A stretch of DNA of 64,000 nt, taken from NCBI GenBank assembly GCA_025916675.1, contig CP098402.1, forward strand, positions 1,793,205-1,857,204, written 5' to 3'. Position numbers and translations under genes: made by a program. This stretch comes from Phycisphaera sp. (lineage in GTDB: Bacteria > Planctomycetota > Phycisphaerae > Phycisphaerales > UBA1924). Below, piece by piece: positions 15,857 to 22,849 of this stretch. The notes beneath the pieces were generated by a model. That model ran no database searches and was not told the origin of the DNA. It was given only the letters and a program-made list of their open reading frames with translations. The first letter of the stretch is position 1, and each line of letters opens with the position of its first letter.

Positions 15857-16909
15857 TTACTCGCAGCCAGCGGCGAAGGCGTTCTGGAAGCACAGGAAGT
15901 CGAACAGGCTCAGCGAGCCGTCGCCGTCGCAGTCGGCCAGCGGATCGCCCGCCGCGAACAGGTTCTGGAAGCAGAGGAAGTCGAACAAGCTCAACGACCC
16001 ATCGCCGTCGCAGTCGGCCGGGCAGCCCGATTCGGGCCCCTCAGCGACAAGCGTCAGGTCGGCCATCACGTCGAGCGCAATCGACTCGAGCGTGAGATTG
16101 AGCACGACGTTCGCTGTCGACCCGGGCGGCAAGATGGTGGGCAAGGGGAGCGGGATGCCGGGCAATTCGGTCATTGGCTCCTGGAGCGTTTCCTGATCGA
16201 GCATGGCTGCGGAGATCAGCGTTGCGGCACCAGCGTCGACGGTGATCGTGCCGGTGAGCGGCAGTGCGAACGGCGTGGGCGGCAAGGCGACGGGGGCGCC
16301 CATGGCGTCAACCTCACCGGTCAGCGTGCCGGGGATGGCGATCATGAACGTGAACTCGCCGGGTGCGGTGGCCATCAGTACTCCGTCGGCCAGGTCGGTC
16401 TGGGCAAACACCAGTTCGGTCAGGGCCAACTCGCCCAGCGGGAACGTCAACGGAAAACCACCGATGAACGTGGAATCGGGTGCCCGGGTCCGGAAGGTGT
16501 CGAACTGGAGGCTGATCTCGGCGGGCAGGGAGAGGGGCGACCCACCCAGCAGATCGATCATCGCACCAGCAATCGACATCGCGTCCGCGTCGGGGTCGAG
16601 GCTCAGCGAGAAGGCGCCGCCGCTCACGGCCGAGAGGTCGTCGCCGATCGACAGCCCCGCCGTCGCCGGCACGGGCACGTTCTCGGTTGGCCCGAAGCTG
16701 CCGAACAGGCCGGGCTTGGTGCGGGTGCCGTCGGGGTTGGTGTCGGGATCCCAATCGCCGATCAGCGAGCCGTCGGTCTCGACGCCGACGGCGATGGTGC
16801 CATCCAGCCCGCTGGCGTCGGTCAGGACGAGGTCGTAGCTCTGGGCGGCCGCGAGAGCGGGAGCGAAGAGACATGCGATGGCGGGAGCGAAACGGTACGT
16901 GGGGGTCAT
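15857..16909 (-). CDS. Secreted protein with paired GC-type dockerin tail
   Basis: The 350-residue protein has a signal peptide (MTPTYRFAPAIACLFAPALA, then AAQ) and a beta-rich body without a recognised domain. The last 55 residues hold two dockerin-like EF-hand repeats, each with DCDGDGSLSLFDFLCFQN. They are preceded by SGCPA and end in AAGCE. The Asp/Gly pattern fits calcium-binding loops. Unusually, each repeat has extra cysteines (DCDGDG and FLCFQN), giving six Cys in the tail, whereas the other copies in this window have only the outer pair. ATG 16909 has GGAAG upstream. Confidence 0.85.
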   Translation of the reverse strand: MTPTYRFAPAIACLFAPALAAAQSYDLVLTDASGLDGTIAVGVETDGSLIGDWDPDTNPDGTRTKPGLFGSFGPTENVPVPATAGLSIGDDLSAVSGGAFSLSLDPDADAMSIAGAMIDLLGGSPLSLPAEISLQFDTFRTRAPDSTFIGGFPLTFPLGELALTELVFAQTDLADGVLMATAPGEFTFMIAIPGTLTGEVDAMGAPVALPPTPFALPLTGTITVDAGAATLISAAMLDQETLQEPMTELPGIPLPLPTILPPGSTANVVLNLTLESIALDVMADLTLVAEGPESGCPADCDGDGSLSLFDFLCFQNLFAAGDPLADCDGDGSLSLFDFLCFQNAFAAGCE

Positions 16910-17229
16910 GCGAGGCTTCCTGGGTGTGTTTGGGCCCCGACAATGTACCAGCGCTGGGCTCGATTGCGAGGCCCAGACCCAATTGGAAGTGGCCCTGGAA
17001 CGCGGAAAAAGCGTAACAAGGAGGGCTGGGGAAGGGCCCGGAGGCGGCCCGGGCTTGACCGGGACCCTATGCTGGCCCACACTTGGCACCCAGGTTCGGG
17101 CAACAGGTAGGCCCGAGCGGGCGTATGAGACCTTCGTATGGTTTTCCCGGCTGGGCAGATTCGCCCGAGAGTCGGTTTCGGTTTGGTTCCGTACCAGTAA
17201 CCCTTGGATAGTGCAGAAGGGGGCCCCCG
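16910..17229. other. 320-base divergent intergenic region
   Basis: It lies between the GC-dockerin gene (minus) and the coiled-coil gene (plus), and must carry both promoters. I see short A-rich patches (GGAAAAAGCG near 17005) but no clear hairpin, array or RNA gene. Confidence 0.4.
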
Positions 17230-18603
17230 ATGGCCGGACGTGGTGGAGGAATGGCGATCTTCGCCGCGGTTTCGAGCATCCTCGTGGTGGTGCTGTTCGT
17301 GCTCACCGTGGTGTTCTACTTCCAGGCCGAGGCGGCCAAGCGGGACGTGAACAACATGGAGCAGGCGACCGCCGAGTTCATCGAGCCCGCCGAGCGGTCG
17401 CAGGACCAAGTCCGCCAGTTGGTGGCCCAGGCCAGCGCCGAGCGTAAGAGCCTGGTGGGCTATCTGGTTGACAGCCGCCGCGAAATCATGCAACGCGTGA
17501 CCGGCGTTGGCCAGGATTCGCTCGCCCAGCTCAACACGAAGCTCGACAGCGTTCCCGGTGCCGACGGCGGCGCCCTGCTCCAGGTGGCCCGCGACGCGGT
17601 CCGCGAAAAGGAGAACCTCGAAGCGCAACTGGCCCAGGCCAACGCCGCGAGGGCTCGCGCCCAGGAAGACGCCGCCAACGAGACCGCCCGCGTGGCCTCG
17701 ATCGAGGAGGGCTTCCGCGACACCGTCGCCAGCCTGAGCGCCGAGGTCGCCAACTATCAGGACGAGGTCGAGAGCCTCCGCAGCGAGTACGGCCAGGCCC
17801 GCCTGAGCATGGACAGCCGCGTGTCGGACATCCGCGACCGCGCCGACGACCGCGTCTCGATCCTGGGCAACCAGCTTGACCAGGCGCGCACCGACCTGCG
17901 AACCGCCGAGGATCAGGTCCGCGAGCTCCGCGGCCAGGGCCGCTCCACCGGCGTGCGTCCCCGTCCCGAGGAATCGCTCGTCGACGGCGTGATCGTGCAG
18001 GTCAACGAGAGCGACCGCCAGGTCACCATCAACCGCGGCGCCCAGCACAAGGTGCGGCGGGGCATGACCTTCGCGGTCTACAGCGATGAGGGCGAGATCC
18101 GCCCCGACGCGAGCGGCGCCTACCCCCGCGGCAAGGCCAACCTCGAGGTCATCCGTGTGTTCGACGATCGCTCGATCGCCCGGATCAACGGCTCGGTCTC
18201 GGGCCGCCCGCTGCTCCAGGGCGACGTCGTCGCCAACGCCGTGTACGACCCCAACAAGGTGTACAAGTTCGTGGTCTACGGCTTCTTTGATGCCGATGGC
18301 GATGGCGTGGAGAGCTTCGGCGAGACCCGCGCCATCGAGTCGTCCATCCGCGGCTGGAACGGCACCATCGTCGACACGCTCTCGGGCGATGTTGACTTCC
18401 TCGTGCTGGGCACCCGCCCCACGCTCCCGCCCGAGCCGGATATCACGGCCACCGAGCAGATGATCCTCCAGTACCAGGAAGCCCTGACACGCGTGGAACG
18501 CTACGACGAGCTGTTCGATAGCGCCGTTGCGGCCGGCGTGCCCGTGCTGAACCAGAACCGGTTCTACACGCTCATCGGTAAGCCCTACGGCGACATCCGC
18601 TAA
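17230..18603 (+). CDS. Membrane-anchored coiled-coil protein with BRCT-like C-terminal domain
   Basis: The 457-residue protein has one N-terminal membrane helix (about 8-31). A long coiled coil spans about 35-240 and a small beta domain about 245-345 (VDGVIVQVNESDRQVTINRG). The last ~110 residues look like a BRCT fold: KFVVYGFF, IESSIRGWNGTIVDTLS, DVDFLVLG and AAGVPVLNQNRF match the order of BRCT strands and helices. An EF-hand-like DADGDG lies between the first strand and first helix. BRCT modules normally act in cytoplasmic DNA repair or ligase proteins, so finding one on a membrane stalk is odd. The match is by eye only. The gene stands alone. Confidence 0.8.
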   Translation: MAGRGGGMAIFAAVSSILVVVLFVLTVVFYFQAEAAKRDVNNMEQATAEFIEPAERSQDQVRQLVAQASAERKSLVGYLVDSRREIMQRVTGVGQDSLAQLNTKLDSVPGADGGALLQVARDAVREKENLEAQLAQANAARARAQEDAANETARVASIEEGFRDTVASLSAEVANYQDEVESLRSEYGQARLSMDSRVSDIRDRADDRVSILGNQLDQARTDLRTAEDQVRELRGQGRSTGVRPRPEESLVDGVIVQVNESDRQVTINRGAQHKVRRGMTFAVYSDEGEIRPDASGAYPRGKANLEVIRVFDDRSIARINGSVSGRPLLQGDVVANAVYDPNKVYKFVVYGFFDADGDGVESFGETRAIESSIRGWNGTIVDTLSGDVDFLVLGTRPTLPPEPDITATEQMILQYQEALTRVERYDELFDSAVAAGVPVLNQNRFYTLIGKPYGDIR

Positions 18604-18643: not shown

Positions 18644-19723
18644 GTGCCCGGCAAGAAACACAAGCCCAATCGAGGCCTGCCAACCCCCATCGTGCTCGGT
18701 GGGATGGCAGGCGTTCGCATTGGTGTGGGGGCGCTCGCCGCACCAACATGGCCCATCACGCAGTCCTTCGTTCGCGCGGCGGGGTGCTATTACGCCACCC
18801 GTTCCAAGAACAGCAAGCGGCTGGAACGGGCCCGCGGGCACCTGCGGGTGGCCTTCCCGGAGGCCGGTCCGGAGCGGGTCGACCAGCTGGCCATCGAGGC
18901 ATACCAGCACCTGCTCCTGCTCGGGGCCGAGATCGCCCGCAGCCCGCGCACGATGAGCACCGATAGCGTGCTGAGGCACGTGGAGTTCCGCGGCGTCGAG
19001 AAGGGGCTCAATGCGATCGTCTCGGGGCGCCCCTGCATCCTGATGACCGGCCACTGCGGCAACTGGGAGGTGCTGGCCACCACCGCCGCCCTGCTCGGCA
19101 TCCCGATGCACGCGATCTACCGGCCCATGGAGTTCGAGCCGCTGGACAACTGGATCCGCCGCGAGCGCAGCCGCCCGGGCGTGATCATGGTCGACAAGTT
19201 CGGGGCCATGCACCAGCTGCCCAAGCTGATGGAGCAGGGGGCGTGCCCGGGCTTCGTGGCCGACCAGAACGCGGGCGACCGCGGCGTGTTCGTGCCCTAC
19301 TTCGGCCGCCTGGCCAGCAGCTATAAGTCCATCGGCCTGCTGGCCCTGAAGTTCAACGCGACGATCATCTGCGGGGCCGCCCACCGCGTGCCGAGCCCCG
19401 ACGGCGACACGCACTACCGCTTCGCCATCCACGACACGTTCGGCCCCGAGGAGTGGTCGCAGCACCCCGACCCGGTGTTCTACCTCACCGCCCGATACCG
19501 CCGCGCGCTCGAGACGGCGGTGCGCGAGGTGCCCGAGCAGTACCTCTGGATGTACCGCATCTGGAAGAGCCGCCCCCGCCACGAGCGCCTGGACAAGCCA
19601 TTCCCCGACAAGCTCCGCGAGCACCTGCGGCTGCTGCCGTGGATGACCGAGGACGAGGCGGCGAGGATCGAGGACCGCAGCGAGCGGGACCGGGCGATAT
19701 TGAGGGAAGGCGGCATGATCTGA
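18644..19723 (+). CDS. LpxL/HtrB-like lysophospholipid (lipid A) acyltransferase
   Basis: The 359-residue protein has the acyltransferase catalytic motif GHCGNWE (H137 to E142) and the later segment CPGFVADQNAGDRGVFVPYFG typical of the family. In Gram-negative bacteria these membrane-associated enzymes add secondary acyl chains to lipid A. A planctomycete with an outer membrane could use it in the same way. The annotated start is GTG 18644; ATG 18704-18706 region (MAGVRIG) is an alternative. The stop overlaps the gatC ATG by one base (TGATG), so the two are translationally coupled. Confidence 0.85.
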   Translation: MPGKKHKPNRGLPTPIVLGGMAGVRIGVGALAAPTWPITQSFVRAAGCYYATRSKNSKRLERARGHLRVAFPEAGPERVDQLAIEAYQHLLLLGAEIARSPRTMSTDSVLRHVEFRGVEKGLNAIVSGRPCILMTGHCGNWEVLATTAALLGIPMHAIYRPMEFEPLDNWIRRERSRPGVIMVDKFGAMHQLPKLMEQGACPGFVADQNAGDRGVFVPYFGRLASSYKSIGLLALKFNATIICGAAHRVPSPDGDTHYRFAIHDTFGPEEWSQHPDPVFYLTARYRRALETAVREVPEQYLWMYRIWKSRPRHERLDKPFPDKLREHLRLLPWMTEDEAARIEDRSERDRAILREGGMI

Positions 19724-21018: not shown

Positions 21019-22176
21019 CTACGCGCAGCCCGCGTCGAACGCGTTCTGGAACGCCAGGAAGTCGAGGATCGTGAACGCGCCGTCGCCGTCGAAGTCGACG
21101 GCGGGGTCCATGGCGTCGAAGAGGGTCTGGAAGGCGAGGAAGTCGAAGATGGTCAGCTCGCCGTCGCCGTCCAGGTCAGGCGGGCACGGCGCCGTCACGA
21201 CCGATGCGACACGAAATCCTCTTGCCAGACCTGGCAGCGAGACGCTGCCAAAGCTGTCCAGTCGATCAGCAACCTGGTATGTAGGGTCCGGAACTGTTCC
21301 TGAACCCGCCAAGAGGCGACGCATGGCGGATGTGCTGGGATTGACAGCGGTCTCAAGCATCTCCTCGACGCCCCCCGATGCATCGAGCAACCCCCACGGT
21401 GTTGTGGTATCGGGGTACGAGCCCACCGGATACCACAAGAGCCCTGGCGGCCCCGACTCGCCGCCGCTTGTCTCGGCCCCGGGCGTGCCCGGCGGGCCGC
21501 TGACGAGGAAATCATCGCTGCCGCCCGGATGGTACCAGTAGCCCTCCTGCCCATCGCCGTAGCGGTCCGGGTCGTAGTGCACCGCCTTGGTCCACTCGTC
21601 GAGGGTGGGCAGGAAGTACTTGGCGTCTGGCGAACGCTCCGGTTGATCGAGGAAGGCCCCGGTCACGGGATCGGTGCGGAACGTGCTCGCGTCGTACACG
21701 CCGCTGTTGAAGTCTTCGAGGTCCGTGCCCTGCCCGTTGTGCAACCAGTTGGTGTAGCGGGCCGCGTACCGCCACGACATGATGGCCGGGGCGTGCTGCG
21801 ACCCGGGGGACAGAAAATCGAGGATGGCGACGCCATCCGGATCGAACCCGACGACCCTGATGCCATGGCCGATGAGGGTGCCCCCCGTCGTAGCGCCGCC
21901 GGCCCGAAGGTACGACTGTGCGAACCTGATGTACTGGTCGTTGGTCACCTCGGTCCGCGTGATGCGGTACTCGTAGTCGACGCCGCCATAGGTGCCGAAG
22001 CGATCAAAGTTCCAGTCGGGTGCCTCAGACGGCAGCACCCCCCGGTTGCCCGGGGCCCCGATGGTCACGAAGTCGTGGCCGTAGTCGGGGGGAATGGTTT
22101 GGGAAAGGGCGGGGGCGGCCGCGAGGGCCAGGGCGAGCGTGCGGGTGGTGAACGCGGAACGGGTCGTTGACGGCAT
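21019..22176 (-). CDS. Secreted SUMF1/FGE-sulfatase-like protein with GC-type dockerin tail
   Basis: The 385-residue protein starts with a signal peptide (MPSTTRSAFTTRTLALALAA) and continues with a formylglycine-generating-enzyme-like fold. Landmarks are ITRTEVTNDQYIRFAQSY, SWRYAARYTNWLHNGQG, YFLPTLDEWTKAVHYDP, WGLLDASGGVEEMLE and GFRVA. Many planctomycete relatives are not sulfatase activators, and the active-site Cys pair of true FGE is not obvious here, so it is probably a structural or binding version. The tail has two dockerin-like EF-hands (DLDGDGELTIFDFLAFQT, DFDGDGAFTILDFLAFQN). It is bracketed by APCPP and DAGCA. ATG 22176 has GGGAGG 5 bases upstream. Confidence 0.88.
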   Translation of the reverse strand: MPSTTRSAFTTRTLALALAAAPALSQTIPPDYGHDFVTIGAPGNRGVLPSEAPDWNFDRFGTYGGVDYEYRITRTEVTNDQYIRFAQSYLRAGGATTGGTLIGHGIRVVGFDPDGVAILDFLSPGSQHAPAIMSWRYAARYTNWLHNGQGTDLEDFNSGVYDASTFRTDPVTGAFLDQPERSPDAKYFLPTLDEWTKAVHYDPDRYGDGQEGYWYHPGGSDDFLVSGPPGTPGAETSGGESGPPGLLWYPVGSYPDTTTPWGLLDASGGVEEMLETAVNPSTSAMRRLLAGSGTVPDPTYQVADRLDSFGSVSLPGLARGFRVASVVTAPCPPDLDGDGELTIFDFLAFQTLFDAMDPAVDFDGDGAFTILDFLAFQNAFDAGCA

Positions 22177-22265
22177 GTAGCCTCCCTGTCGGATTGCGTG
22201 TGCCCGAGCATCGGCCAATGTGACCCGGATTGCCCGGAATCCCGGGTTCGTCCGCCCTTGCCGCC

Positions 22266-22477
22266 CAGCTCGGCATTGGAACTCAGCGGGGCCCCGAGGC
22301 CAACCGAGCGGGCCGTGGATTGATCCCAGCGGGCATCGGATTGATTTCAGTGGGCACCGACATCGTTTCGGCAGGCCCTGAGATGATCTCGGCAGGCACC
22401 GAGTCCAACTCAGCGGGCACCGAGATCGTTTCCGCAGGCACGGACATTGTTTCAGCGGGCACCGACATTGTTTCCGC
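22266..22477. repeat. 21-bp tandem array 1
   Basis: About ten units lie head to tail; the eight from 22310 to 22477 are exactly 21 bases each. The best-kept unit is GGGCACCGACATTGTTTCCGC, whose first half (GGGCACCGA) varies less than its second. It sits between two divergent genes, the SUMF1-dockerin gene and family member A. There are no spacers. Open frames across it on both strands arise because 21 is divisible by three. Confidence 0.9.
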
Positions 22478-22849
22478 GGCGCAATTGCTGCGCTCCGGTC
22501 GGCCCTGACGAGCTCTGGGGCAGGTTTTGCCTCGCAGACGCCAAACAGAACTTCTGTTCGTGGCCCAGCCCTTTGAGCCCCCGGTTCCGAGGGGGGCAAT
22601 CAGGGCAGTACGACTTTTTTTGTGTGGTGACCGAATCGGACCAAAGTAAGGTTTCAGGACGCTCGATGGAAGATTCGGCTCGGCCGGTTGTCGGCCGCGG
22701 CCGATCACAACGTGGGGCGCGGCCCGCGCGCGACCCGGCTTGGAGAGCATTGTTATGTTCGCAGGTTTTCTTTCATCGTTGGCCGCGCCCGGAGCATCGG
22801 GCTGCGGCCTTTGCCCGTCCATCATAACTTCGTGCAACGGGGGTGCGTC
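22478..22849. other. Leader region before family member A
   Basis: This 372-base segment lies between the 21-bp array and the ATG at 22850. It is less GC-rich than coding DNA around 22600-22640 (GACTTTTTTTGTGTGGTGAC), as expected of a promoter region. No gene or strong hairpin is seen. Confidence 0.4.

Follow-up and report, generated by a model that had tools for sequence, protein, structure and literature searches.

A stalked planctomycete protein that joins a FlgT_C-type barrel to a BRCT domain with replaced phosphate-pocket residues

The window analyzed here (64,000 nucleotides of Phycisphaera sp., contig CP098402.1, within a 3.6-Mb, single-contig host genome) encodes a 457-aa protein in which a membrane helix, a long helical stalk, a small β-barrel and a C-terminal BRCT domain follow one another, with a lipid A acyltransferase-family gene directly behind it in the same direction. 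Features are listed below by position in the window.

17230–18603, + strand: membrane-anchored stalk/FlgT_C/BRCT gene, an open reading frame of 457 aa
17251–17325, + strand: single N-terminal transmembrane helix (residues ~8–32), from hydropathy and charge bias; predicted N-in/C-out
17326–17967, + strand: helical stalk (residues 33–246), from hydrophobic period and length
17968–18252, + strand: FlgT_C-type β-barrel (residues ~247–341, Pfam match 262–334), from PF16538 and fold
18253–18582, + strand: BRCT domain (residues ~342–451), from sequence profiles and fold
18289–18324, + strand: EF-hand-like acidic DxDxDG loop (residues 354–365) between BRCT β1 and α1, from alignment
18415–18504, + strand: proline-containing insert and longer helix α2 relative to LigA BRCT (residues ~396–425), from alignment; helix 68–94 of the model
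18644–19723, + strand: lipid A acyltransferase-family gene, downstream and co-directional (PF03279, E 6.1e-30)

We hold this architecture, and the BRCT identity of the last domain, to be close to certain. The first-pass annotation had proposed a BRCT-like domain on a membrane-anchored coiled coil from five short stretches (KFVVYGFF, AIESSIRGWNG, TIVDTLS, DVDFLVLG and FDSAVAAGVPVLNQNRFYTL), all of which are present in the order given. Its C-terminal placement of the domain is borne out, with the start moving from 18265 to about 18253 (residue 342); the annotation is also right about the membrane helix and the stalk of ~200 residues, and had overlooked the FlgT_C-type barrel lying between stalk and BRCT. 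An NCBIfam scan of the 457-aa protein gave weak matches of coiled-coil type, none above cut-off.

A Pfam scan of the window protein alone does not match BRCT (PF00533), and the assignment is therefore carried by its relatives. PF00533 is matched at E<=1 by 27 of the 40 family members in the alignment, which counts the window protein, with a best E of 1.3e-6; a scan of 41 whole genomes with the same profile places four matches above the curated cut-off, and a fifth just below it, at positions coinciding with family members. Searched against PDB sequences, the domain profile finds first the LigA BRCT 1l7b (E 0.0016) and then the RFC1 BRCT 2k6g (0.0024), both as partial matches (best stretches 33–38 of 112 positions), with unrelated proteins starting at E 0.12; the single C-terminal region of the window protein used as query in such a search gives no matches. 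Comparison of the family profile with a profile of 31 LigA BRCTs from the same clade yields a score of 35.0 (probability 83%, E 9.1e-6); the highest-scoring of 40 column shuffles reaches 20.9 (8%), and reversed alignments give 9.4 and 12.3. Relatives from other planctomycete classes, assigned to the family by the combined FlgT_C–BRCT profile, match more strongly: seven of ten scanned proteins lie above the BRCT cut-off, reaching 66.9 bits against a cut-off of 21.3 (E 4.3e-10 in L107, 1.2e-9 in L110, and 1.8e-18 for L109:1862-3277, which carries two BRCT stretches), and the remaining three (L112, L113 and L114) are not matched.

The residues that the family has in common with the LigA BRCT are those of the fold: the β1 glycine (40/40), the second glycine of the Gly–Gly turn between α1 and β2 (40/40) and the α2 alanine (39/40). 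The first glycine of that turn is kept in 32 members and is Asn in eight, including the window protein. Sequence profiles and fold both support the placement of the C-terminal domain among BRCTs, with the LigA domain (PF00533) among its best relatives by either measure and alike in fold and in strand and helix order.

The fold was examined on the BRCT domain predicted alone, since the Foldseek and VIA-align lists for a two-domain model were dominated by FlgT and F1-ATPase barrels and were uninformative on the BRCT. AlphaFold2 (16-sequence alignment) models the domain at pLDDT 92.7 and pTM 0.82, with strands and helices in the BRCT order β1-α1-β2-β3-α2-β4-α3. Foldseek against the PDB places an RFC1 BRCT (2ebu) first, only at E 3.8e-3, and lists no match for the domain at E 0.001 or better. 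VIA-align gives a best Z of 8.7 (RFC chains span 8.7 to 7.1) and names BRCT in the title of 17 of the first 31 rows; the other 14 (RFC, DNA ligase, Dbf4, ECT2 and Fcp1 chains) are presumably BRCT proteins too, the phage ligase at rank 8 being counted unchecked, and the first other fold appears at rank 32 (Z 6.2). The fold comparison proposed in the first-pass annotation therefore returns a BRCT-like domain. A FlgT- or LysM-like β-domain in its place, the outcome which that annotation had set against its own reading, is rejected: FlgT_C is present as a separate, adjoining domain.

The evidence for that adjoining domain combines a marginal profile match with a match in fold. The full window protein matches FlgT_C (PF16538) at E 5.5e-6 with 27.2 bits, barely above the cut-off of 27, and its C-terminal part at 28.4; 34 of the 40 family members match at E<=1, and the only match in the host genome is at the stalked BRCT gene. 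In the fold searches with the two-domain model, FlgT structures come first (3w1e and 8z5n, VIA-align Z 9.8 and 10.7), and N-terminal barrels of F1-type and related ATPases come next, with Z about 9. FlgT is described as forming part of a periplasmic ring, the H ring of the Vibrio flagellum (PMC7693769). The barrel beside the BRCT shares the FlgT_C family and fold; it corresponds only to the C-terminal domain of FlgT, and here it is borne on a membrane-anchored stalk and itself bears a BRCT.

The stalk is probably a coiled coil, through which the protein may oligomerize. Its averaged hydrophobicity has a 3.6-residue period in three overlapping segments, at values reached by 0, 4 and 0 of 500 shuffles. 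Over 40 rows, which represent 39 distinct proteins since the window's copy and the one from its own genome both count, the stalk spans 210–238 residues with a median of 214. Its mean pairwise identity is 26%, and that of each end domain about 50%; because length is nearly constant while sequence drifts, the stalk resembles a spacer for which length is important, with a reach of up to ~32 nm if it were one continuous helix. The plan of N-terminal helix, stalk and barrel recalls MreC, which has a membrane helix, a coiled coil and β-barrels outside the cytoplasm and is not known to carry a BRCT as the 457-aa protein does. A reading of the gene as an MreC paralog was considered; the host genome has a separate MreC, PF04085 being matched at one other place (785875–786357, E 5.9e-9) and not reported at 17230–18603, and a Pfam scan of the 457-aa protein does not list PF04085 either.

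We consider it probable, from predicted topology, that the BRCT domain lies outside the cytoplasm. The N-terminal flank of the membrane helix is more positive than the C-terminal flank in 36/36 near members and in 30/33 further members (ranging from the order to other classes) in which the helix was detected, five proteins having been dropped where it was not (four near, one further); the differences are small, +1 was added for the amino terminus, and a few N-flanks lack a start codon near the helix. A second indication comes from three of ten further members scanned (L131, L132 and L133), in which a DUF3887 domain (E 1.8e-18 to 1.2e-19) is inserted between membrane helix and barrel, beginning in L131 about 115 residues past the helix; all three genomes belong to one family (f23), and the three members therefore count as one lineage. 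A search of 119 phylum genomes finds other DUF3887 proteins in ten (seven above the Pfam cut-off, three below), and by eye eight of the ten proteins start with a signal peptide or lipobox, while one has the domain after membrane helices and one is unreadable. Charge bias, DUF3887 and the periplasmic ring of FlgT jointly favor an outward orientation, short of proof; the suggestion in the first-pass annotation of a site outside the cytoplasm has thereby gained the flank charges and the DUF3887 of one lineage, and is still a prediction.

A different picture emerges for the ligand. The first-pass annotation described BRCT domains as cytoplasmic readers of phosphopeptides or DNA ends, and a carry-over of that usual ligand is unsupported here because both pocket residues are replaced in 40/40 members. 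The two positions, which we take to be the β1 Ser/Thr before Gly and the α2 Lys, were placed by alignment to LigA: Thr and Lys are each found in 31/31 clade ligases and in 0/40 members, the first position being occupied by Phe (16), Tyr (15), Ala (5) or others (4) and the second mostly by Leu (36). Twenty further members (16 from other classes, four from the class) are mixed at the first position (Thr in two, Ser in two), with no Lys among the 18 residues listed at the second. The RFC1 BRCT (2k6g, 2ebu) binds 5'-phosphorylated DNA ends, and its pocket residues are likewise not conserved in the stalked family.

Adjoining the replaced pocket is the acidic loop, which carries D, D/N, D/N and E at positions 1, 3, 5 and 12 in 33/40 members; among the other seven, four fit more loosely and three fail (the position-12 acid is missing in three). 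A simple DxDxD-type pattern is found in 0/31 clade LigA BRCTs and, among the 20 further members, passes in nine and fails in 11. A canonical EF-hand is rejected: the PROSITE pattern for the 12-residue loop with its hydrophobic position 8, applied in what we take to be its published form, fits 0/40 members, and Pfam EF-hand_5 matches one of 40 (E 0.2). Since the loop departs from the canonical form, calcium binding is a putative property, to which we give about an even chance on the conserved acidic positions. Compared with the LigA BRCT, the family thus differs in being membrane-anchored on a stalk and probably outside the cytoplasm, in replacing the pocket Thr and Lys in all 40 aligned members, in carrying the acidic loop and in having an insert before helix α2.

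The stalked protein was matched in 40 of 41 genomes (its own included), and the 15 named relatives come from Phycisphaeraceae, Phycisphaerales, Phycisphaerae or otherwise planctomycete genomes. In wider samples, the FlgT_C–BRCT profile matches 193/198 genomes of the class (154/155 of good quality), mostly as one copy per genome, and 251/294 genomes of the phylum (131/155 of good quality); outside the class many matches span only profile positions ~4–150, corresponding to the barrel plus the N-terminal half of the BRCT. A plasmid search returned no match to the family. Being near-universal in the class and mostly single-copy, the protein is a candidate core envelope protein. Five genomes of several other classes (L107, L109, L138, L139 and L140) have two adjacent, diverged stalked FlgT_C–BRCT copies, an arrangement that suggests a hetero-oligomer; one of the copies in L109 is the protein with two BRCT stretches.

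An acyltransferase-like gene lies 3' of the family member and in the same direction at 13 of 15 loci (L008 and L011 do not have it there), and it also adjoins the family member in L121 and L124, two more genomes from the order, making 15 of 17 near loci; the stalked BRCT gene and the lipid A acyltransferase-family gene are likely to share an operon. The neighbor is absent from all 16 loci of other orders or classes, one of which (L108) shows only about 0.5 kb downstream. Neighbors in other classes are unrelated (polA/coaE, alaS or tatC, by Pfam scan of L116, L117, L111 and L120), and shared neighbors failed as a phylum-wide functional clue, varying as they do between classes. The gene immediately 3' of the family member is a tatC gene (PF00902) at L117:5481-6476 and, by clustering, a similar one at L119:5315-6136; the two genomes represent separate planctomycete families. 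On the other strand of the window, 15857–17089 (−) and 21019–22599 (−) encode proteins ending in paired D-x-DGDG-x-x-x-x-FDFLxFQ-type repeats, which we take to be dockerin-like, calcium-type repeats of a kind known from Phycisphaera; the product of 21019–22599 also looks to be of formylglycine-generating-enzyme type.

Three other explanations bear on these observations. The domain could be a generic α/β fold that resembles BRCT by convergence, as might be argued from the missing Pfam match of the window protein itself, the modest best Foldseek E-value and the three of ten other-class relatives that go unmatched; set against this, Pfam BRCT matches reach 1.3e-6 in members and 1.8e-18 in relatives, the profile–profile score far exceeds its shuffles, and the fold list opens with BRCT chains, so that convergence is rejected on profiles and fold lists and is scarcely credible, being nearly refuted. 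Given a true BRCT, the membrane helix might be reversed, the head then being cytoplasmic and tethering the chromosome or a replication protein to the membrane. The nearest folds (RFC1 and LigA BRCT) lend themselves to such a role, the LigA BRCT being a cytoplasmic domain described as helping to bind DNA (PMC10504179), and cysteines, between one and three of them, occur in some members (in the barrel, according to the alignment). Charge bias, the DUF3887 insertion and the FlgT_C partner domain all oppose a cytoplasmic head, as does the replacement of the pocket Thr and Lys in every aligned member; the domain is moreover rather acidic (mean net charge −4.5 over 40 members, against −1.3 over 31 ligase segments, some of which include linker), and we judge a reversed helix to be rather unlikely.

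Accepting an outward orientation, the head might have a ligand other than protein, namely carbohydrate, lipid A or extracellular DNA. The lipid A acyltransferase-family gene beside near relatives is what speaks for this; its absence from the loci of other orders and classes speaks against it, as does the loss of the residues that would hold a DNA phosphate, and we know of no BRCT that binds sugars or lipids. A non-protein ligand is in our estimation improbable.

We therefore return to an outward-facing envelope tether with a phosphate-blind, protein-docking BRCT head and a probable calcium loop, a reading that, taken whole, we consider evenly balanced. The protein would be anchored in the inner membrane and point out of the cytoplasm, its helical stalk of fixed length keeping the FlgT_C barrel and BRCT head a defined distance away from that membrane. 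The head would no longer read phosphates, whether of DNA ends or of phosphopeptides, and would most likely dock another envelope protein; protein docking, considered by itself, we place a little short of an even call. In Phycisphaerae the acidic loop between β1 and α1, beside the old pocket, would probably bind calcium, which may shape or gate the contact. The adjoining lipid A acyltransferase-family gene of near relatives hints at a role in envelope organization. More tentatively, and with the balance somewhat against it, the family could belong to the ancient core of the planctomycete envelope: a BRCT would have left the cytoplasm, lost its pocket and acquired an acidic calcium-type loop (in Phycisphaerae and certain other classes), and would now serve at the end of a fixed-length stalk as a protein-docking head gated by calcium. 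Computation supports the elements on which these proposals draw, namely the architecture, the BRCT and FlgT_C identities, wide conservation, loss of the pocket residues and conservation of the loop.

BRCT domains are normally known from DNA repair, as cytoplasmic or nuclear modules that read DNA ends and phosphopeptides. Prokaryotic BRCTs are described as conserving the phosphate pocket (PMC10504179, with reference to Sheng et al, 2011). In titles and abstract openings of the open-licence literature, searched for periplasmic, membrane-bound, extracytoplasmic, EF-hand-bearing or planctomycete BRCTs, the present family is undescribed; the nearest mention concerns a different family, YwqG-family proteins fused to BRCT and YwqG fused to transmembrane regions (PMC4275035). 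The parts are thus known families, and it is their combination, probable location and changed pocket that are undescribed in the open-licence literature searched. A phylum-wide family that keeps the BRCT fold, loses its pocket residues and probably lies outside the cytoplasm would widen the known uses of this fold, and would add a candidate to the core envelope proteins of bacteria whose cell plan is unusual.
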